Source: Deltaproteobacteria bacterium | GTDB taxonomy: Bacteria; Desulfobacterota; Desulfarculia; Adiutricales; Adiutricaceae | NCBI GenBank assembly: GCA_031269485.1 | Contig: JAISZC010000032.1 | Span: 1 to 58,805, forward strand | Direction: 5' to 3' | Length of the DNA: 58,805 bases | Part shown: piece by piece, positions 29,585-40,315 of the stretch | How the letters are laid out: the number at the start of each line of letters is the position of its first letter | Position numbering within the stretch: the first letter of the stretch is position 1 | Made by a program: the position numbers and the translations under genes | Notes under the pieces: generated by a model | Told to the model about the DNA's origin: nothing | Databases searched by the model: none | What the model saw: the letters and a program-made list of their open reading frames with translations, nothing else

Positions 29585-29682
29585 GGTTTCTCCGGCGGGG
29601 CTCCGAAGAGCCCGGGTTGACGGCCCCGACCTCCGGCGCGTCGGTCGCCTTGCACGCGCCGAGGAGTTTTGACGGCTGGGCA

Positions 29683-29711
29683 ATCTTATTTGACGCCGCT
29701 AGCCTTGTCAA
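29683..29711 (-). promoter_or_regulatory. Sigma-70 promoter of the LeuB-type dehydrogenase/gmhB pair
   Basis: On the minus strand, TTGACA (29711-29706), 17 bases, TAAGAT (29688-29683). Near-consensus boxes with ideal spacing lie about 100 bases before the start codon. Confidence 0.75.
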
Positions 29712-29850
29712 GCAGGCCGCGTCGGCCTCGGCCCCGGCCGACGCGTCGAAAAAATCGTTGGGACGAAGGTGGCGAGCACTCTTGGGCGGCCTGAAAGACG
29801 ACGGCCGATTCCTGCCGCGGCTCAAGCCGCGGGCATCCTGGGGGATTTGC

Positions 29851-31059
29851 ATGAACAAAAGAAAGCTCATCGTCAGTGTCTTTGACAACCAACCGGTTGA
29901 CAGAACGCCTGTGGGGTTCTGGTTCCATTTCCTGGACCAGCCGGAAAAGGCCGATTATTTGGCGGACCCCGGCCTCCTGGACTTGGTCGTGGAGGGCCAT
30001 CGACGCTTCTTCAAGGCCTTCGAGCCGGATCTGATCAAGATAATGACCGACGGCTTCTTCGCCTATCCGGCGCCCGGCCCCCCCGTCAAAAAGCGCGACG
30101 ACTTGAGCCGCCTGGATCCCGTGGACCCCTCTCATCCGTGGTTGCGCGGCCAAGTCGAGCTGGCGCGGCGCATCGCCGATCTGCAGCCCGACGTCTGCCG
30201 GTTTTTCAACATTTTTTCGCCGGCCACGTGCCTTAGGTTCCTCCTGGGCCGAAACCTTTTCTGCGAGCTGATCCTGCGCGAGCCGGAGACCGTCAAGGTC
30301 GCCTTGGGCGCCATGGCGCGGGGGCTGTCCGTGCTGGCGCAAGCCGTGATCGAGGACGGCGGCGCCGACGGCTTGTATCTGAGCGTCCAAAACCCCGACG
30401 TCAACCGCATTTCCGACGAGGTCTACCGCCGGGTCCTGGCGCCGCCGGAGCTGGCGGTCCTGGCGGCGGCCAAAGAGGCCGGCGGACGCAACATCTTGCA
30501 CATCTGCGGGTATGACGAGGTCAAAAACAATTTGGATTTTTTCACCGCCTATCAGGCGCAGGCCTTCAGCTGGGCCGTCAACGTCGAAGGCCTCAGCCTG
30601 GGCGAAGGCCGGCGGCTGTTTGGCGGTCGGGCGGTCGTCGGAGGCTTTCCCAACACGGCCGGCTCCGTGCTGACCTCCGGCTCCAGAAACGAGGTCGAGG
30701 CCTTCGCCAAGGAACTCGCGGCCGAGGCGGGAAACGTGGGAGTCATCGTCGGCGCTGACTGCACCATTCCGTCGGACATTGACCTCAAACGGTTGGAATG
30801 GGTGCGCCAGGCCCTCAACAAGCCGATCCGAAAAACGGCCAAGCCGGCGGCCAAGCCGGCGGCCAAGTCGGCGGCCAAGCCGGCGGCCAAGCCGGCGGCC
30901 AAGCCGGCGGCCAAGCCGGCGGCCAAGCCGGCGGCCAAGCCGGCGGCCAAGCCAACGGCCAAGTCGGCGTCCAAGCCGGCGGCCAAGCCGGCGTCCAAGT
31001 CGACGGCCAAGCCGGCGGCCAAGCCGGCGGAAAGGCCGAAGAAAGAACAGGCGAAATAA
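29851..31059 (+). CDS. UroD/MtbA-like methyltransferase-family protein with Lys-Pro-Ala-Ala tail
   Basis: The product has 402 residues from the ATG at 29851 (GGGGGAT upstream). Residues 1-325 match the uroporphyrinogen decarboxylase/MtbA fold. Signs of the corrinoid methyltransferase branch are HICG (His217, Cys219) and a later Cys304 in VGADCTIPSD, the His-x-Cys...Cys zinc pattern used to bind a thiol methyl acceptor. The HemE N-terminal arginine motif is not seen. Residues 331-394 are 16 tetrapeptides, mostly KPAA, resembling histone H1 or nucleoid-protein tails. It may move methyl groups from a corrinoid protein, in line with cobS and the MttB-like gene, but no corrinoid protein is adjacent. 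Confidence 0.78.
   Translation: MNKRKLIVSVFDNQPVDRTPVGFWFHFLDQPEKADYLADPGLLDLVVEGHRRFFKAFEPDLIKIMTDGFFAYPAPGPPVKKRDDLSRLDPVDPSHPWLRGQVELARRIADLQPDVCRFFNIFSPATCLRFLLGRNLFCELILREPETVKVALGAMARGLSVLAQAVIEDGGADGLYLSVQNPDVNRISDEVYRRVLAPPELAVLAAAKEAGGRNILHICGYDEVKNNLDFFTAYQAQAFSWAVNVEGLSLGEGRRLFGGRAVVGGFPNTAGSVLTSGSRNEVEAFAKELAAEAGNVGVIVGADCTIPSDIDLKRLEWVRQALNKPIRKTAKPAAKPAAKSAAKPAAKPAAKPAAKPAAKPAAKPAAKPTAKSASKPAAKPASKSTAKPAAKPAERPKKEQAK
30841..31032 (+). repeat. Twelve-base coding tandem repeat (AAGCCGGCGGCC, 16 units)
   Basis: Sixteen units of 12 bases, most identical to AAGCCGGCGGCC, encode the KPAA tail of the UroD/MtbA-like protein. Unit variants are KSAA, KPTA, KSAS, KPAS, KSTA and KPAE. The in-frame period means copy number could change without a frameshift. 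Confidence 0.95.
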
Positions 31060-31482
31060 GCGGCGGCCTAGGCGTCGGCCGCGACGGCGCCTGGGCCGCA
31101 GGGGGCCGCGAAAATTGACTTTATGTCGGCTCATGCTACAATCGACCAAACGCGAAGGAGCGTTGAAACTCCTAACTTTTTCCGGCCTCGGAACGGGAGC
31201 GCCGTTGCGGCGTCTCTCCTGTCGTCCTTTTGGCTTCCGGACGTCCTTTCAAGTCGTTGCCGGAACGGCCGGACTCCGTTCGGAGGCCAAGCGCGAGACC
31301 GTTCGCCGGCGGCCGACCGGCGCTGCCCCGAAAGTCTCCGACCTGATCGAGATTCAGCGTCGAAGCCGGACGTCACGGGGGCGTCTCGTTTGTTGCATGT
31401 CTTCGCCGATCACATAGGCTCCCCTCAGTTAGTTCGCTAAGACTAACTACCATAACTCCAATATGACAACAAGCGGTAAAAA
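31060..31482. other. Intergenic junction between the GC-rich chromosome and the AT-rich island
   Basis: The first 370 bases are GC-rich, and the sequence turns AT-rich after about 31440. It holds a strong plus-strand promoter (31115-31142) but no gene that I can support after it. A 7-base inverted repeat (AGTTAGT/ACTAACT) lies at 31427-31448, exactly at the change of composition. Confidence 0.6.
31115..31142 (+). promoter_or_regulatory. Strong sigma-70-like promoter without an obvious gene
   Basis: TTGACT (31115-31120), 16 bases, TACAAT (31137-31142). A short hairpin (AGGAG/CTCCT) followed by a T run lies at about 31155-31181, right after the expected start, so transcripts could end early. 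No supported gene follows within 300 bases. Confidence 0.6.
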
Positions 31483-31506
31483 ATGGCAAAAAAAGTAAAG
31501 CATTTA

Positions 31507-31517
31507 ATATATATATA
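31507..31517 (+). repeat. Short AT dinucleotide repeat inside a signal-peptide coding region
   Basis: (AT)5A. Removing one AT unit joins the ATG at 31483 in frame with the DUF3798-like gene and creates a signal peptide. See the gene entry at 31542. Confidence 0.7.
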
Positions 31518-31541
31518 GTAACTATTTTAATTATATTATTC

Positions 31542-32705
31542 ATGAATAGTCAACTTGTTATGGCTCAGCATGACCCTGAAGGAGAATCAAAATATATAAT
31601 AGGTGTAGTTACTGGGCCTTGTATCCAAACTTGTGATGAATATACGGTAGCTATGGATATGATTAAAAAATACGGCGCAGCAGAGTCTGGTGGTTTAATT
31701 AAACATGTTACTTATCCTGAAGATTTTGTAACTGATATGGATAAAACAATAAAAATAATTGAAAATTTAAGTACTGATCCATTAGTTAAAGCTATTGTCG
31801 TCAATCAAGGTGTTCCTGGAACGTCTATAGCATTTAAAAACATAAAACAAAAACGTCCTGATATTAAATTATTAGTAAGCGAAATTCATGAAGATCCAAT
31901 TCATATTTCGTCTGTCAGTGATTTAGTAGTAAGTTCAGATTTTATTGCTAGAGGTTATCTTCTTCCCTTAGCAGCTAAAAAATTAGGAGCAAAAACTTTT
32001 GTTCATATATCATTTCCTCGACATATGATTAAGGAATCGATTAATCGTCGAAAAGTTATAATGGAAGAAGCATGTAAAGATTTAGGGTTAAAATTTGCAT
32101 CAGAAAATGCTCCAGATCCTATCGGAGAAGAGGGTCTTGATGGCGTTGAAAAATTTTTATCTAAAAATATTATGGTATGGTTAGATAAATATGGTAAAGA
32201 TACGGCTTTTTTTAGTACTAATGAGTCTCATACTGCCTTTATAGTCAAACAAGTTGCAAAATATGGTGGTTATTTTATTGAATCAGATCTAGCCTCTCCA
32301 CTTATCGGTTATCCTAAATTATTTAATATCAACTTATCTTCAAATATTAAATGGCAAGATGTAATAAAAGAAATTGATACCGCAGTGGTTGAGGCTAATT
32401 TAGCGGGAAGATTTGGCACTTGGACGGCTTCGCTCGGATATTGCCATACGGCCGGATTAATATCCTTTGCTAAACAAATTATTGAAAATAATGTGCAAGT
32501 TGATAATTTAGATAAATTATTAGAATCATATAGCCAATTTTCGTCAGATATAGACTGGAATGGGAGTGCCTATCGAGATTCTTCTGGTCATATAATTGAA
32601 CATTATTTTTTGTTATATCAAGATACTTATATATTTGGTCAAGGTTTTCTGGGCAATACTGCAGAAATAATTCCAGAAAAATATTTTATGTTGGGTAACG
32701 ACTAG
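31542..32705 (+). CDS. DUF3798-family protein, probably exported, start region frameshifted
   Basis: 387 residues from the ATG at 31542. It follows the DUF3798 pattern, a family of secreted or lipoprotein-like proteins with a fold like periplasmic binding proteins: IGVVTGP, MIKKYG, AIVVNQGVPGTS, KTFVHISFPRHM, EEACKDLGLKF, YGKDTAFFSTNESHT, and YQDTYIFGQGFLG near the end. No ribosome site precedes this ATG, and the product lacks a signal peptide. In the same frame just upstream the codons read IVTILIILF, a hydrophobic core. An ATG at 31483 encodes MAKKVKHLIYI one frame off; loss of one AT in the repeat at 31507-31517 would join them into a full signal peptide ending LVMA-Q. The gene is very AT-rich. 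Function unknown. Confidence 0.75.
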   Translation: MNSQLVMAQHDPEGESKYIIGVVTGPCIQTCDEYTVAMDMIKKYGAAESGGLIKHVTYPEDFVTDMDKTIKIIENLSTDPLVKAIVVNQGVPGTSIAFKNIKQKRPDIKLLVSEIHEDPIHISSVSDLVVSSDFIARGYLLPLAAKKLGAKTFVHISFPRHMIKESINRRKVIMEEACKDLGLKFASENAPDPIGEEGLDGVEKFLSKNIMVWLDKYGKDTAFFSTNESHTAFIVKQVAKYGGYFIESDLASPLIGYPKLFNINLSSNIKWQDVIKEIDTAVVEANLAGRFGTWTASLGYCHTAGLISFAKQIIENNVQVDNLDKLLESYSQFSSDIDWNGSAYRDSSGHIIEHYFLLYQDTYIFGQGFLGNTAEIIPEKYFMLGND

Positions 32706-32724
32706 ATATTAAAAGCAAAACCTA

Positions 32725-33832
32725 CATTTCGTTATTATAACTGGCATGATAAGTCAAGGCGCTGAAGAAGTTATCGGCGTGGAGAAATGATACGTAGATA
32801 CGGACAAGTATCTGATGGCGGTCTTATTGACCATCGGTTTTACTCTGATCAATTTATTGATGATCTAGAAGCTACGGCGAGTTTAATAGATAGTTTTGCC
32901 GATGATCCTATGATGAAAGCTATTGTGGTCAATCAAGCTGTGCCAGGGACGGCCGAAGGTTTTAGACGAGTCAAAGCTAGACGACCTGATATTATATGCT
33001 TAGCTGGAGAAGCGCATGAAGAACCAGAATAAATATCATTTTATGCCGATTTAGTAGTCGATTCTGATTTTATTTCTAGAGAACATTTAATACTGTATTC
33101 AGTAAAGTGCAAAAAAATTTGTTCATATATCTTTTGATCGTCATTTAGCTTATGAGACTATGAAATGACGATTTTTAATTATGAAAGAAGTCAGTAAAGA
33201 TTTAGGATTAGAATTCTCCGATGAGAGGGCTCCGGACCGAGCAGACTAGATGGCGTTGAAGTGGTAAAACAATATATAATTGATATTTTTCCACCTTGGA
33301 TAAAAAATATAGATCAATACTGTTTTTTTTTGCATAAATGATGCGTATACTGGTCCGTTAATTCAACAAATTACAAAATATGGTGGAATATTTGTTGAAG
33401 CTGATTTCCCATCAAGTATAGTGGGATACCCTGAAGCTTTTGATTTAGACTTAACTAATTATGTTGGTATTGGACTTTAATATAAAATAGAAAATAAAGT
33501 TATAAAAGCAGGGGCAAGTGGTCGATTGGTGACTTGGACTTATCTTTTGGTTATAATTAAACGACTGGAATAGCTGATTTTGGCAAGCTTATTGCGAAAA
33601 AGGCTGATGTTAAATCAATAAAAAACTATTAGATTGTTACAACCCTTTTTTTCCTGATGCTAAGTGGAATGGTAATTATTATAACGATTCAACCACTGAC
33701 AAGCCAATATTAAATTATTTTTTGATATATCAAGATATATATACTTTTGGTAAAAGTTATCTTAGTGTCGCTAGCGTTGAAACTCCAGATAAATACTATA
33801 CGATAGACATAAACACCGCGATTAAGGAATAA
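32725..33832 (+). pseudogene. Decayed second copy of the DUF3798-family gene
   Basis: Pieces of the same family can be read in order over 1.1 kb but in changing frames and with stop codons. They are VIITGMISQGAEEVIGVEK, MIRRYGQVSDGGLIDHRFY, AIVVNQAVPGTAEGFRRV, CLAGEAHEEP, KEVSKDLGLEFSDERAPD, YGGIFVEADFPSSIVGYPEAF, GRLVTWTYL, FPDAKWNGNYYND and YFLIYQDIYTFGKSYL. At least five frameshifts or stops separate them. An intact stretch of 81 codons (32787-33032) is only a fragment. It lies directly after the intact copy, so an old tandem pair has lost one member. The signal-peptide end is not recognisable. Confidence 0.85.
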
Positions 33833-34116
33833 TACTTAATATTATTATATATTTAGGTACTTTTTGACTCAAAGCACGCATTAGACAGACAAGAACGCTT
33901 TGGCCCCCGCCGCCTGGCGTTCAGGGCTTTTTGGGCCGGGCCAAACTCGAAGGGCGCCGGCTAGCCTTGAACCATCGGCCAGAGGCAGGGAACGGCGAAC
34001 CGAGCTCCCCACGTAGACGTCCTCGACCGCCGGGCGGCCAGGCCCAAGAGGCGACTCTTTGGCGTTGCAGATCCTTGCCCCTTCAGCCCAACAAGCGAAA
34101 CTCCGTCGTAAAAATT

Positions 34117-36936
34117 ATGGACATTATTTTATTAATTAAAAAAGAATACAAACAAGTAATATTTGTTTGTATTGCTTTTTTTATAATGATATTAGCTTCC
34201 TATGCTTATGTTAGTTCTATTATGAAGCGTCATATTGACGTATATAATCGAACTATTATGCATGTGCATAGCATAACCTTAAGAAACTTAGTTGTAGCTC
34301 ATGAAGCCGCTTTAAATCAAAGTGTTTCAACTTTAAAGATTGCTATAAAAAATAAAGCAAAACCAAATGATCTCTTAGAAATATTAACAAAACAAACAGA
34401 ATTATATAGAGAACAAAAAAATATTAAAGATGTATTTTTATCGGTATATGGTTATATTGATGGTAATTTTTTAGATGGTGCGGGTTTAATTCTCGACGAA
34501 TATTATAATCCAAAAATTTCTCCCTGGTTTCGTGGCGCAATTTTACAACAAGGTTTATATTATACTAAGCCATATAAAGATTCACGGACTGGCCAAGTAG
34601 TCTCCGCAATTTCTACAGCTATTTATGACGATAATGGTGAAAGTCATGGTGTAATAGCTATAGATTATCTTTTAAATCCGATTATTAAGCAAGTTACAGA
34701 ATTTAGTTTTGGAGGTATGGGATATGGTGTACTTATTGATAGCAGTTTAAATGTTTTAAGCCATCCTATTGATAAATATATTGGTCAAAATATTGATATG
34801 TTACCAGGTTGCAGCGGTTTAAGTGATAAATTAAAATCAATTAAAATTAAGGATAATAATAAAGAAAACGATAAAGATGATATTATTATCGAGAAAATAG
34901 TCAATGAAAGGGTCAAAAAAATAGCTTTTTTTAGCCGTTTAGAGAATGGCTGGTACCTAGGAATTGTTTCTCCGGAACGTTTTTATTATAGCGCAATTTA
35001 TAATATGATACCCATTATTGCTTGTTTAGGTTTTGCTTTGGCCGTGCCATTATGTTATTTATTACTTAGTCATACAGCCGCTAAATATCGCTCACAAGAA
35101 GAAAGTAGATTAAAATCATCATTTTTAGCGCGAATGAGTCATGAAATTCGGACACCTATGAATGCTGTTATTGGTATGAGCGATCTAGCCATACGTGATT
35201 ATGGACAACCAGAGGGACTCAATAGGCTTTTAGAGATTAGACGAGCTGGCAAGAATTTAATGAGCATAATTAATGATATTTTAGACATTTCAAAAATTGA
35301 ATCAAGTACTTTTCTTTTGTCCAATAAACCATATGAATTAGACAGACTTATATCTGATGTAATATCGATAATTAATATACGCACTAAGGATAAAGACCTT
35401 GATTTTGTTGTAGATATTGATAAAAATATACCTCGCGGGTTAATTGGCGATGATACGGCTTTAAGGCAGATAATGTTAAATTTATTATCTAATGCTGTTA
35501 AATACACACCAAAGGGTCAGGTTAAGTTATTGATCAGAGGCTTTTTGCAACATCTTGAATTTGAACCCAAAGTTAATTTGTTAATTACTGTTATAGATAC
35601 AGGTGTAGGTATACAAAAGGAGAATATGGGTAAATTATTCGAGGATTTTGTACGAATAGAACAAGAAGGCCATCGTTACATCGAAGGCACTGGATTGGGA
35701 TTGGCCATAGTCAGTAATCTATGTAAAAAAATGGAGGGTACCGTAACTGTAGAAAGTGAATACGGAAAAGGCTCAATTTTTACAGCTTCTGTTTTTCAAC
35801 TAATCAATAATATTGAACCTATTGGACAAATAGATAACTCTCTATTTACATTAATAGATAATGAAATTTTCATAGTTCCTTTCAAAGCTCCAAATTGTCG
35901 CGTCCTTGTGGTTGATGATAATTTAACAAATTTAATAATTGCCAAAGGATATCTTGAAGCTTATGATATGCAGATTACCCTGGCGCAATCTGGAAACGAA
36001 GCTTTATCTTTAGTACAAAATCAGGATTTTGATATATTTTTAATTGACCAAATGATGCCTGAAATGGATGGGATATCATTGATGAAAAAATTACGAAAAA
36101 ATGAAGAAGATGATAAAAAATATATTATTTTAGCTTTTACCGCCAACGCCATTAATGGGGTCCGAGAAACATTAATAGAAGAAGGTTTTGATGATTTTAT
36201 ATTAAAACCAATAGAAGAAAATAATTTAAATGAAATATTAGAAAAATTTATACCGCCAAATAAAAAAATAGATCCTAATAGCCCAAATAAGAATGTAAAA
36301 AATTATCATTTGTCAAATGAACAAAATAATGAAATCGACTTTAAATTATTAAAAGGTATAGATACTTCAGTTGGCTTAAGGCGTTGCAATAATTCAGAAA
36401 AAATATATTTTAATATTTTAAAAATATTTTTACATGAGGCTGAAGAATTTATTGATAAAGTTGTTGCAATAAATACTGACAATAGACAAGATTTGACTAT
36501 CATTTTTCATTCAATAAAAAGTGCCTGTGCCAATATTGGTGCCCTAGAAGTCTCAAAACTAGCAGCTTTTCTTGAAGAAAACGCAATTAAAAATAATATA
36601 TCCATAATTAATGCAGAAATTAATGATTTTAAAGAAAAATTATCGAAAATAACTGTAAGCTTGAGGGCTTTCATTAATAATTTTGAACATATATTTTTAA
36701 ATATGGATAATAAAACGAATAAAGTTGAATTAGATGACGCCGATCTCTTGTTACAGCGTCTTAAAATGGCCATAACTGAAAAGAATTTTTCTCAAATTGA
36801 TAAATTAATAGAATTGATATCAATTTCAAATTATAGATCCTCTGTTAAATATGTTAACCAAATAGAAGAATCGATTTTAGTTTCAGAATTTGATCAAGCC
36901 TTACATCTAATCGATAATATGCTAACTGAGGTTTAA
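34117..36936 (+). CDS. Membrane hybrid histidine kinase (dCACHE-HisKA-HATPase-REC-HPt)
   Basis: The ATG at 34117 gives 939 residues; the frame is open to 33931, but that part is GC-rich and not protein-like. A membrane helix at 13-33 and a second at 297-317 enclose an external sensor of the dCACHE type (ISPWFRGAILQQGLYYTKPY, then a second module with GVLIDSSLNVLSHP). Then come HisKA (His342 in MSHEIRTPMNAVIG), HATPase (LNLLSNAVKYT, DTGVGIQ, GTGLGLA), a receiver with Asp644 in FLIDQMMPEMDG, and an HPt domain with His798 in FHSIKSACANIG. All catalytic residues are present. The HD-GYP regulator starts two bases after its stop. Very AT-rich, with a weak ribosome site. Confidence 0.9.
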   Translation: MDIILLIKKEYKQVIFVCIAFFIMILASYAYVSSIMKRHIDVYNRTIMHVHSITLRNLVVAHEAALNQSVSTLKIAIKNKAKPNDLLEILTKQTELYREQKNIKDVFLSVYGYIDGNFLDGAGLILDEYYNPKISPWFRGAILQQGLYYTKPYKDSRTGQVVSAISTAIYDDNGESHGVIAIDYLLNPIIKQVTEFSFGGMGYGVLIDSSLNVLSHPIDKYIGQNIDMLPGCSGLSDKLKSIKIKDNNKENDKDDIIIEKIVNERVKKIAFFSRLENGWYLGIVSPERFYYSAIYNMIPIIACLGFALAVPLCYLLLSHTAAKYRSQEESRLKSSFLARMSHEIRTPMNAVIGMSDLAIRDYGQPEGLNRLLEIRRAGKNLMSIINDILDISKIESSTFLLSNKPYELDRLISDVISIINIRTKDKDLDFVVDIDKNIPRGLIGDDTALRQIMLNLLSNAVKYTPKGQVKLLIRGFLQHLEFEPKVNLLITVIDTGVGIQKENMGKLFEDFVRIEQEGHRYIEGTGLGLAIVSNLCKKMEGTVTVESEYGKGSIFTASVFQLINNIEPIGQIDNSLFTLIDNEIFIVPFKAPNCRVLVVDDNLTNLIIAKGYLEAYDMQITLAQSGNEALSLVQNQDFDIFLIDQMMPEMDGISLMKKLRKNEEDDKKYIILAFTANAINGVRETLIEEGFDDFILKPIEENNLNEILEKFIPPNKKIDPNSPNKNVKNYHLSNEQNNEIDFKLLKGIDTSVGLRRCNNSEKIYFNILKIFLHEAEEFIDKVVAINTDNRQDLTIIFHSIKSACANIGALEVSKLAAFLEENAIKNNISIINAEINDFKEKLSKITVSLRAFINNFEHIFLNMDNKTNKVELDDADLLLQRLKMAITEKNFSQIDKLIELISISNYRSSVKYVNQIEESILVSEFDQALHLIDNMLTEV

Positions 36937-36938
36937 AA

Positions 36939-38015
36939 ATGTTTAATTTTTCAAATTATATAATAATGATTGTTGATGATGCTATTACAAATTTAAAATT
37001 TGCTAAAAATACTCTCAAAGATATAGCAAATATTGTAACAGTCCCCTCAGCTGAAAAAATGTTTACTTTGCTTGAGACTGTAAAGCCTTCATTAATATTA
37101 TTAGACATAAATATGCCAACAATGAATGGTTTTGATGCCATAGCTAAGTTAAAAAATATGGAGTCAACAAGCCAAATTCCTGTAATTTTTTTGACAGCAA
37201 AAAATGATCCACAAAGCGAAATTACAGGCTTGGCTCTGGGGGCCGTTGACTATATAACAAAACCTTTTGAGCCAGAATTGCTAATAAAACGAGTAGAAAT
37301 ACATCTAACGTTGTTATACCAGCGTTTGATACTTGAATCACAAAGTAAAGAATTAAGTAATTTTAATAATAATTTACAAAAAATGGTACAAGAAAAAACT
37401 GATAAAGTTATAAGATTACAAAAAGCAATTTTAAATACGGTGGCTGATATTGTTGAATCAAGAGATACAAACACAGGTGAACATATCTCAAGAACAAGGC
37501 GATGGCTTGGTGATTTACTGCATCGTTTAAGAGATAATAATATATATACTGATTTAATTAAAGACTGGGATTTTGAACTAATTTTACAATCTTCTCAGTT
37601 ACATGATGTGGGTAAAATAGCAATAAGTGATAATATACTTAAGAAAAAAGGTCCTTTAACTAAAGAAGAATTTGAAAGTATAAAAACACATGTCGAACTA
37701 GGTGTAAAAATAATCGATAAAATTGGGTTAGAATTGCCCAATGATGATACACATTTTCTTCAATTTGCTAAAATTATGGCTTATTATCATCATGAAAAAT
37801 GGGATGGCACTGGTTACCCTTCAGGTTTAAGCGGTGAGAACATCCCTTTATTAGGCCGACTGATGGCTATCACTGACGTATATGATGCTTTAACGTCAGA
37901 TAGACCATATAAAAAGGCATTTACGCATGATATTGCCATTAATATAATTATTAAGGGCGCAGGTTATCATTTTGACCCTATTATTGTCAATGAATTTATA
38001 CAGATTAAACCATAA
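36939..38015 (+). CDS. Response regulator with HD-GYP c-di-GMP phosphodiesterase domain
   Basis: The product has 358 residues. The receiver domain (1-120) has Asp13-Asp14, Asp56 in LLDINMP and Lys in DYITKPF. A coiled linker joins it to an HD-GYP domain (165-358) with HD at 222-223 in QLHDVGKIAISD and the signature HHEKWDGTGYPSGLSGENIP at 284-303, so it should be an active phosphodiesterase. It starts two bases after the hybrid kinase stop, which makes it the clear phosphotransfer partner. The pair would turn an external signal into lower c-di-GMP, affecting motility or attachment. AT-rich like the kinase. Confidence 0.92.
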   Translation: MFNFSNYIIMIVDDAITNLKFAKNTLKDIANIVTVPSAEKMFTLLETVKPSLILLDINMPTMNGFDAIAKLKNMESTSQIPVIFLTAKNDPQSEITGLALGAVDYITKPFEPELLIKRVEIHLTLLYQRLILESQSKELSNFNNNLQKMVQEKTDKVIRLQKAILNTVADIVESRDTNTGEHISRTRRWLGDLLHRLRDNNIYTDLIKDWDFELILQSSQLHDVGKIAISDNILKKKGPLTKEEFESIKTHVELGVKIIDKIGLELPNDDTHFLQFAKIMAYYHHEKWDGTGYPSGLSGENIPLLGRLMAITDVYDALTSDRPYKKAFTHDIAINIIIKGAGYHFDPIIVNEFIQIKP

Positions 38016-38163
38016 TACTTCATTTAGAGGCCAGTTTGCGTGGGAGGCTCAGGTCGGTCGACGCTCTTTTGGCGCCTGAAAAAAACCAGGCGGCCGGCGC
38101 CGAGGCGCGGCCGCGGCGCCGGCCGAGCGCTCCCCTCCAGTCCGGCTCGTTCCAGGCCCGACG

Positions 38164-38430
38164 TCAGAGCCGGCGCGTGAAGCGTTCGGCGATCTGCGCC
38201 ATAAGCACGGTGAAGAGCGGCATGACCGCGGACAGGGCGTAAACTTCAGGGGTCAGCCCGCGCTTGAGCGAGGAGTAGATGGGCAAAGTCACCGATTCGG
38301 GGCCATGGGTGAAGAAGCTGATGATGAAATCGTCGAGCGATAGGGTGAAGGCCAGCATGGCGCCGGCCAGCACGCCGGGCATGAACAAGGGTAGCGTGAC
38401 GCGAAAGATAAAAATTGGAGGCGAACAAGT
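38164..38430 (-). pseudogene. Duplicated 3' fragment of potC
   Basis: About 270 bases repeat the end of the potC gene at 38601-38868 with a few base changes and small gaps. Encoded pieces are MPGVLAGAMLAFTLSLDDF, IISFFTHGPESVTLPIY and IAERFTRRL. The 5' part of the gene is missing and the fragment has no start. The copy also includes the bases just past the stop (from about 38138). At its other edge it joins a short copy of the HD-GYP gene's 3' end (TTAAACCATAAT, 38435 onward). Confidence 0.88.
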
Positions 38431-38434
38431 CTCC

Positions 38435-38461
38435 TTAAACCATAATATTTCATTTAAAGGT
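38435..38461 (+). repeat. Copy of the 3' end of the HD-GYP gene
   Basis: TTAAACCATAAT-TTCATTTAAAGG repeats, with two changes, the last codons and flank of the HD-GYP gene at 38004-38030. Together with the potC fragment it shows that both sides of the island's right junction were duplicated. The 115 bases from here to 38576 are AT-rich and hold no gene. Confidence 0.7.
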
Positions 38462-38600
38462 ATATCTCAGTTCTTTGATTGTATAAATAGTAAATAAATC
38501 AGAACGCCATCTCGCTAGCATGTCCTCCATTTTTAAATCATAATCCTCTCGTAATCCAAAATTATATAATAGACCAGTCCGGCTCGCTCCAGGCCCGACG

Positions 38601-39392
38601 TCAGAGCCGGCGCGTGAAGCGTTCGGCGATCAGCACCATAAGCACGGTGAAGAGCAGCATGACCGTGGACAGGGCGTAAATTTCAGGGGACAGCCCGCGC
38701 TTGAGCGAGGAGTAGATGTAGATGGGCAAAGTCACCGATTCAGGGCCATGAGTGAAGAAGCTGATGATGAAATCGTCGAGCGACAGGGTGAAGGCCAGCA
38801 TGGCGCCGGCCAGCACGCCGGGCATGATCAGGGGCAGCGTGACGCGTCTGAAAAGATAAAAATTGGAGGCGAACAAGTCCCTGGCCGCCTCGTCGGTCTC
38901 TTTGTTGAGGGAGGCCAGCCGGCTTCTGACGACCAAGGTCACAAAGGAGATTTGAAAGGTGATGTGTCCGATGATGAGGGTGCTCATGCCCAACGCGAAG
39001 ACCCCTGACAATTGCCGCAGGAGGGTGAAGGCCAAGGTCAGGCTGACGGCCATGATGATGTCGGGCACGACGACCGGCAGGTTGATGACGACGTCGAAGA
39101 CGCGGTGGGCCTTGCGGGGCCAGGGGACGCGGTCCAGCCCCAAGGCCAGGGCCGTGCCCAGCACGGTGGCCACGGCCGTGGAGACGGCGGCCACCAGCAG
39201 GCTGTTGACGGCCGCTTCCTGGATGTATTCGTTGTGGAGCAACCGGGCGTACCACTTCAGGGTGAAGCCTTTCCAGGCGAAGCCGATGCGCGCGGAGTTG
39301 ACGGAGAAGACGGCCACGGCCGCCGCCGGCAGGTAGAGCAGCAGCAGGGAGAAAAAGGCCGTCAAGGCCACCATGGGGCGCTTGCGGTCCAT
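38601..39392 (-). CDS. potC: ABC transporter permease, spermidine/putrescine type (PotC)
   Basis: The product has 263 residues from the ATG at 39392; the frame is open upstream, but that part overlaps potB out of frame. Six hydrophobic segments are present. The EAA loop for contact with the ATPase reads EAARDLFASNFYLFRRVTLPLIMPG. Conserved PotC features include SLDDFIISFFTHG near 205. It starts two bases after the potB stop, so the two are translationally linked. Its 3' end is duplicated at 38164-38430. The substrate could be a polyamine or a related amine. Confidence 0.85.
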   Translation of the reverse strand: MDRKRPMVALTAFFSLLLLYLPAAAVAVFSVNSARIGFAWKGFTLKWYARLLHNEYIQEAAVNSLLVAAVSTAVATVLGTALALGLDRVPWPRKAHRVFDVVINLPVVVPDIIMAVSLTLAFTLLRQLSGVFALGMSTLIIGHITFQISFVTLVVRSRLASLNKETDEAARDLFASNFYLFRRVTLPLIMPGVLAGAMLAFTLSLDDFIISFFTHGPESVTLPIYIYSSLKRGLSPEIYALSTVMLLFTVLMVLIAERFTRRL

Positions 39393-39394
39393 GG

Positions 39395-40315
39395 TCAGAG
39401 ATTCTTGGGACGGCGCCGGCACAGGGCCAAGCTGGCCAAGGTCATGATCATCAGGGCCATGGACAGCATGGCCCCGAAGGGCCAGTCGCGGGCCTGGCCG
39501 AACTGCAGCTGGATGAGGTTGCCGACGAGCATCTGCTTGGCCCCGCCGAGGATGTCGGACACCACGAACATGGCCATGGCCGGCACGAACGTCATCACCA
39601 GGCCCACCGACAGGCCCGGCAGGGTCTGGGGCAAGATGGCCTGGCGAAAGACCGTCCAGCGGCCGGCGTAGAGATCCCTGGCCGCCTCCAGCAGATCCCA
39701 GTCGAGGCGCTCGACGCTGGCGTAAAGCGGCAAGGCCATGAAGGGCAGGAAAGTCGAGACCATGCCCAGATAGACGGCCAGCTCGCTTGGGTAGAGGGCG
39801 CCGCCGGGGGGAACAAAGCCGGCCCAGGCGGCCAGCTTGGCCGGCGGGAGCTGGGGGCTGAGCAGCAGCAGCCAGGCGTAGGTCCTGACGACCACGTTGG
39901 TCCAGAAGGGGACGATGATGAGGGTCAGCCACCAGACGCGAGCCTTGCGCGGCCGGCAGGCGATGTGGAAGGTCAGGGGGTAGGCCAGCAGCACGCACAC
40001 GACCGTGGTGACCAAGGCCACCTCAAGGCTTCGCAGGAGAATCAGCAGGAAGTCCGGGCTCCAGCCGAACAGGCCGTAGCCCAAAAGGCGCTTGAAGTTG
40101 GCGGCTGAAAAGCTCCATACGATTTGGCCGTAAGGGCCTCGGGCGGCCAGAGCCACCAAGGCCAGGGCCGCGCAGGGGAGGGCCAGCAGCGTCGCCAGCC
40201 AGACGAGGGGCGGGCCGGCCAGGGCCAGGCCGGCGAGACGCAGTTCTCGGGCGTCGCGCACGTCTCCCCGCCAGGATATCATCTTGCGGGCCTTGCGGCC
40301 GGTGGACTCGGTCAT
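39395..40315 (-). CDS. potB: ABC transporter permease, spermidine/putrescine type (PotB)
   Basis: The product has 306 residues with about six membrane segments (for example PPLVWLATLLALPCAALALV). The EAA loop is LEAARDLYAGRWTVFRQAILPQTLPG. PotB hallmark stretches include VPFWTNVVVRTYAW. The ATG at 40315 has GGGAGG upstream. A 15-base perfect hairpin lies between this gene and potA. Together with PotC it forms the membrane channel of the importer. Confidence 0.85.
   Translation of the reverse strand: MTESTGRKARKMISWRGDVRDARELRLAGLALAGPPLVWLATLLALPCAALALVALAARGPYGQIVWSFSAANFKRLLGYGLFGWSPDFLLILLRSLEVALVTTVVCVLLAYPLTFHIACRPRKARVWWLTLIIVPFWTNVVVRTYAWLLLLSPQLPPAKLAAWAGFVPPGGALYPSELAVYLGMVSTFLPFMALPLYASVERLDWDLLEAARDLYAGRWTVFRQAILPQTLPGLSVGLVMTFVPAMAMFVVSDILGGAKQMLVGNLIQLQFGQARDWPFGAMLSMALMIMTLASLALCRRRPKNL

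Follow-up and report, generated by a model that had tools for sequence, protein, structure and literature searches.

A frame break in the signal-peptide codons of a half-decayed DUF3798 gene within a conserved deltaproteobacterial sensory operon

In this analysis of a 58,805-nt contig from a deltaproteobacterial draft genome (the window), we find that the gene for an exported-type DUF3798 protein is cut off from the beginning of its own signal peptide by a break in the reading frame, that a second DUF3798 domain immediately downstream, which is part of the same ancestral gene, is extensively decayed, and that the sensory genes that follow are intact and belong to a conserved operon. We consider the chances about even that a recent frameshift broke the leader of a gene that was already being eroded step by step, a gene that may still be leaky through slippage on a poly(A) tract. 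The leader, the operon genes, the promoter candidate, and the short tracts discussed below all lie on the plus strand.

Translation from the ATG at 31483 to 31485 gives MAKKVKHLIYI and ends at a TAG at 31516 to 31518, as the earlier note on this DNA had read it; this leader ORF (31483 to 31518) is a former signal-peptide start that is now out of frame. The same note had placed the DUF3798 gene one frame away, and it does lie there: its frame runs without a stop from 31467 to 32702 and contains the first ATG at 31542, with IVTILIILFMNSQLVMAQ as the surrounding reading. The leader frame is offset from the gene frame by a net −1 (or +2), and any one-base loss within the approximately 30 nt from 31486 to 31515, or a two-base gain, accounts for this offset. 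Once the leader is taken away, no export segment is left in the window protein. The leaders of related genes (n = 49) encode signal peptides or membrane anchors in frame; since the complete leaders examined in relatives have an in-frame hydrophobic export segment, the break is peculiar to the window locus. A consensus scan gave one sigma-70-like promoter candidate, TTGACT-16-TACAAT with TG before the second hexamer (31115 to 31142), about 340 nt 5′ of the leader ATG. The GC-rich leader region from 31148 to 31420 folded no better than shuffled sequences and had no repeat elsewhere in the genome beyond a 40-nt match, and an Rfam search of positions 30000 to 39500 returned no RNA element, with one sub-threshold chance match only.

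The open frame, which spans 31467 to 32705 with its stop codon and whose mature part begins at about 31566, encodes a DUF3798 domain (domain 1) that matches Pfam PF12683 with an E value of 2e-94 and 316 bits, against a cut-off of 24.6, over positions 1 to 271, the full length of the profile. Structure 3QI7, a solved DUF3798 member with a periplasmic-binding-protein-like fold, matches the same profile at 2e-29. The earlier note had treated this gene as complete and the sequence behind it (domain 2, 32706 to 33832) as a decayed neighbor copy; however, the fused genes of relatives show that the ancestral gene encoded two domains and that the former is its N-terminal half; spacing, linker, and phylogeny identify the latter as its second half. 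Among the 37 genomes of family relatives, most of those with a match have a single frame of about 780 to 1130 amino acids that contains two DUF3798 domains. The spacing between equivalent residues of the two domains is about 376 codons in the window and about 360 to 386 codons in the fused genes of the family, whereas tandem but separate DUF3798 genes in Synergistota are spaced at about 444 to 481 codon-equivalents. The TAG at 32703 to 32705 sits in the inter-domain linker, and the next residues in frame read ILKAKPTF where a relative has ...FKTAAKPTF. In a tree of 56 domains, built by a quick method and supported by SH-aLRT values only, window domain 1 clustered among the family's first domains (95) and window domain 2 among its second domains (96). 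Fused two-domain DUF3798 genes are also carried by two Synergistaceae MAGs (loci L033 and L035), and their domains pair with those of the Synergistaceae tandem genes; two DUF3798 domains therefore seem to have been joined on more than one occasion.

The decay of the two halves is lopsided. In a frameshift-tolerant alignment against five intact relatives, domain 2 and the linker showed 11 to 13 disruptions (about four stops in domain 2 and seven to nine frameshifts, depending on the reference), and the roughly 370 codons of domain 1 showed none. At the domain 2 rate, about 11 events would be expected in domain 1, and the Poisson probability of zero is about 2e-5. Multiple inactivating changes, the mark of a pseudogene, were thus found in domain 2 only; domain 1 has none besides that of the leader. 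Setting the disruptions aside, the halves are equally similar to the two-domain gene of relative G012, with identities of 188/367 (51%) for domain 1 and 198/373 (53%) for domain 2. Near-invariant sites are retained at 87.5% in domain 1, 84% in the kinase, 99% in the regulator, and 80% in domain 2, where radical changes at such sites include G to E, D, or V. The count of 0 against 11 to 13 disruptions indicates that domain 1 was kept under selection while domain 2 decayed, and the retention of near-invariant sites in domain 1 suggests a protein that either still works or did so until very recently. In two relatives, G023 and G002, the second domain is cleanly lost and a single first-type domain is kept together with the kinase, so a one-domain form is viable.

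The window is one contig of a 2.59-Mb draft genome of 249 contigs that is 75.7% complete. Outside a GC-rich spacer (33900 to 34110) that separates two of its AT-rich genes, the whole operon (31430 to 38020) has a GC content of about 31%, compared with about 65% for the contig; the AT-rich island probably came from an AT-rich relative or took on its composition in one. Past the regulator gene, a 310-bp direct repeat (92%) at 38137 to 38435 and 38574 to 38882, within a likely transporter permease gene, encloses an AT-rich remnant whose sequence (ttaaaccataat) looks like the end of the regulator gene; repeat and remnant together may mark a duplication or insertion at the island edge. On the other side of the operon, a 12-bp tandem repeat array (30836 to 31030) gives a uroporphyrinogen-decarboxylase-family protein (29617 to 31059) a long tail of the (AKPA)n type, and a further repeat-rich stretch lies at 1829 to 1974.

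The (AT)5A tract at 31507 to 31517, to which the earlier note had drawn attention, is indeed present, and the 11-nt sequence ATATATATATA occurs once in the window. It is unusual for an AT-rich island, not extraordinary: at least one such tract was obtained with a probability of 0.06 to 0.12 in Markov simulations of the 31% GC island, although it is improbable when judged against the whole GC-rich window. A heritable switch, in which the gain or loss of AT units (or of A residues) turns export on and off across the population, is favored by the fact that the tract reaches the five-unit threshold for dinucleotide repeats within signal-peptide codons, that a change of one AT unit joins the two frames, and that domain 1 is otherwise undamaged; however, beyond the chance expectation in the island, several observations weigh against it. 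None of the 49 leaders of related genes contains a dinucleotide tract of at least five units, and A or T runs of 7 to 10 are common there. The 11-mer occurs at six sites in the genome, and none of the three other readable sites (two minus-strand matches being left out) has a clear gene-start setting. Of eight Haemophilus loci with five-unit dinucleotide tracts, seven were without length change, and the documented switch is the (TA)9-11 tract of hifA/B (PMC2651432). The window tract resembles the hifA/B tract in its two-base unit and in its position in the 5′ region of a gene whose product is exported, but it is half as long, lies in signal-peptide codons rather than in a promoter, and is without known length variation and without an analogue in relatives. 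With the second half of the gene already a pseudogene, the fresh loss that the earlier note had offered as its other option fares better than its phase-variation option, and we regard a heritable on/off switch as distinctly improbable. We also judge it improbable that the out-of-frame leader is a working device in which A7 slippage or AT-unit changes set the fraction of cells or molecules that export the DUF3798 sensor partner; if it were, it would tune the hybrid kinase and its cyclic-di-GMP output now that the second binding domain is lost.

Just 5′ of the AT tract lies an A7 tract (31488 to 31494) that had gone unnoticed, and the AT tract is one candidate among several for the cause of the break, since a loss in A7, or of any one base in the same 30 nt, would serve equally well; the relatives' leaders are too diverged to tell the two tracts apart as the indel site. 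The A7 tract also provides another route around the break. Read in frame with the leader ATG, it forms the slippery heptamer A_AAA_AAA; slipping by −1 at this site gives MAKKSKAFNIYIVTILIILFMNSQLVMAQ, so that RNA polymerase or the ribosome may rejoin the ATG at 31483 to the gene; part of the product would then be exported, and the gene would be leaky, not dead. Both the frame and the direction of the heptamer are exactly what such a rescue requires, a complete signal peptide results, no A_AAA_AAR occurs in frame in the 1711 codons of domain 1, the kinase, and the regulator, and domain 1 bears no other damage. Poly(A)-tract frameshifts corrected by transcriptional slippage are reported for Blochmannia and Buchnera (PMC3017870, PMC5009743), and the window gene is similar to these in that its AT-rich frame is intact but for one break, at an A-run or close to it (PMC3017870); unlike them, its A-run is just seven bases long, its second domain is a true pseudogene, and it is known from DNA alone. 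Seven is below the usually cited run length of at least nine, and in E. coli A_AAA_AAA slips modestly and much less readily than A_AAA_AAG (PMC5009743). Furthermore, a deletion in an A-run of lysine codons makes such a heptamer automatically, the leader folded no better than shuffles (z = +1.25), with no stimulatory structure predicted downstream, and a programmed −1 frameshift would be without conservation, the relatives' leaders being in frame. On balance, rescue by slippage seems unlikely. Slightly less credit is due to a sequence or assembly error, or a mixed-strain consensus, at A7 or the AT tract, under which the real gene would be in frame and encode a single-domain exported protein. 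A lone indel in a homopolymer and repeat region, the intact domain 1, the single-domain versions in relatives, and the draft state of the assembly are all consistent with an error; however, no break occurs in domain 1 or in the roughly 4 kb of the kinase and regulator genes despite 12 A7/T7 runs in the island (8 to 10 expected in Markov simulations), which argues that the general error is low. It is very improbable that translation starts at the ATG at 31542, the first in-frame ATG, or at another internal codon to give a cytoplasmic DUF3798 protein: no Shine-Dalgarno-like sequence lies 5′ of this ATG, the complete leaders of relatives carry export segments, and the partner kinase has a dCache domain, which is normally extracytoplasmic.

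These considerations lead us back to stepwise erosion as the simplest explanation. The first gene of the operon would have encoded an exported protein with two DUF3798 domains, which are type I periplasmic-binding-protein-like; in this lineage, the second domain would no longer have been needed and decayed, while the frames of domain 1, the kinase, and the regulator were kept. Later, a net one-base loss (or two-base gain), probably at the slip-prone A7 or at the (AT)5A tract, would have struck the signal-peptide codons of the surviving domain, with the result that the exported protein is presumably not made or is made at a low level only. Because the sensor gene was already half decayed, we favor a recent mutation that broke the frame over an AT switch as the likelier explanation; that the break is recent is suggested by the lack of other damage to domain 1 in this one genome of the genus, the relatives that were searched including no second one. 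Erosion also has evidence to contend with, in that slippage at A7, which lies in the right frame, could still sustain the gene, a homopolymer error in the assembly or consensus is possible, and domain 1 has kept its near-invariant sites as well as the intact kinase has.

The break stands at the head of a conserved operon, in which the DUF3798 pair is followed by genes for a dCache hybrid histidine kinase (34117 to 36936; dCache_1, HisKA, HATPase_c, receiver, and Hpt domains) and a REC-HD-GYP response regulator (36939 to 38015; a receiver and an HD-GYP type HD domain, HD_5), both intact. LuxP-LuxQ and TorT-TorS are known systems in which a hybrid kinase depends on a periplasmic binding protein. 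The likeness in gene content is that an exported type I periplasmic-binding-protein-like protein is encoded beside a hybrid histidine kinase, and this adjacency, like the operon as a whole, was found at 14 loci in 13 relatives. In contrast to LuxP-LuxQ and TorT-TorS, the DUF3798 protein of this operon is tandem and usually anchored in the membrane, a dCache domain forms part of the kinase itself, and the output is an HD-GYP regulator. The operon recurs across the family at loci L119, L124, L127, L128, L115, and others, and two copies adjoin in L124. Outside the family (f1), in Spirochaetes, Synergistota, and Clostridia, the DUF3798 gene adjoins a gene for an ABC transporter ATPase, whereas in the window and the family its neighbors encode the hybrid kinase and the HD-GYP regulator. 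The operon of tandem DUF3798, dCache hybrid kinase, and REC-HD-GYP genes is apparently uncharacterized in the literature.

In conclusion, the operon is a better target for further work than the repeat, since its gene content leads us to expect that, in an uncultured gut lineage of Deltaproteobacteria, a cyclic-di-GMP circuit has a partner that binds a ligand. If the leader does act as a switch, it would represent an unusual graded control over the export of a sensory protein; on present evidence, the locus is best seen as a conserved sensory operon caught partway through the stepwise loss of domains.
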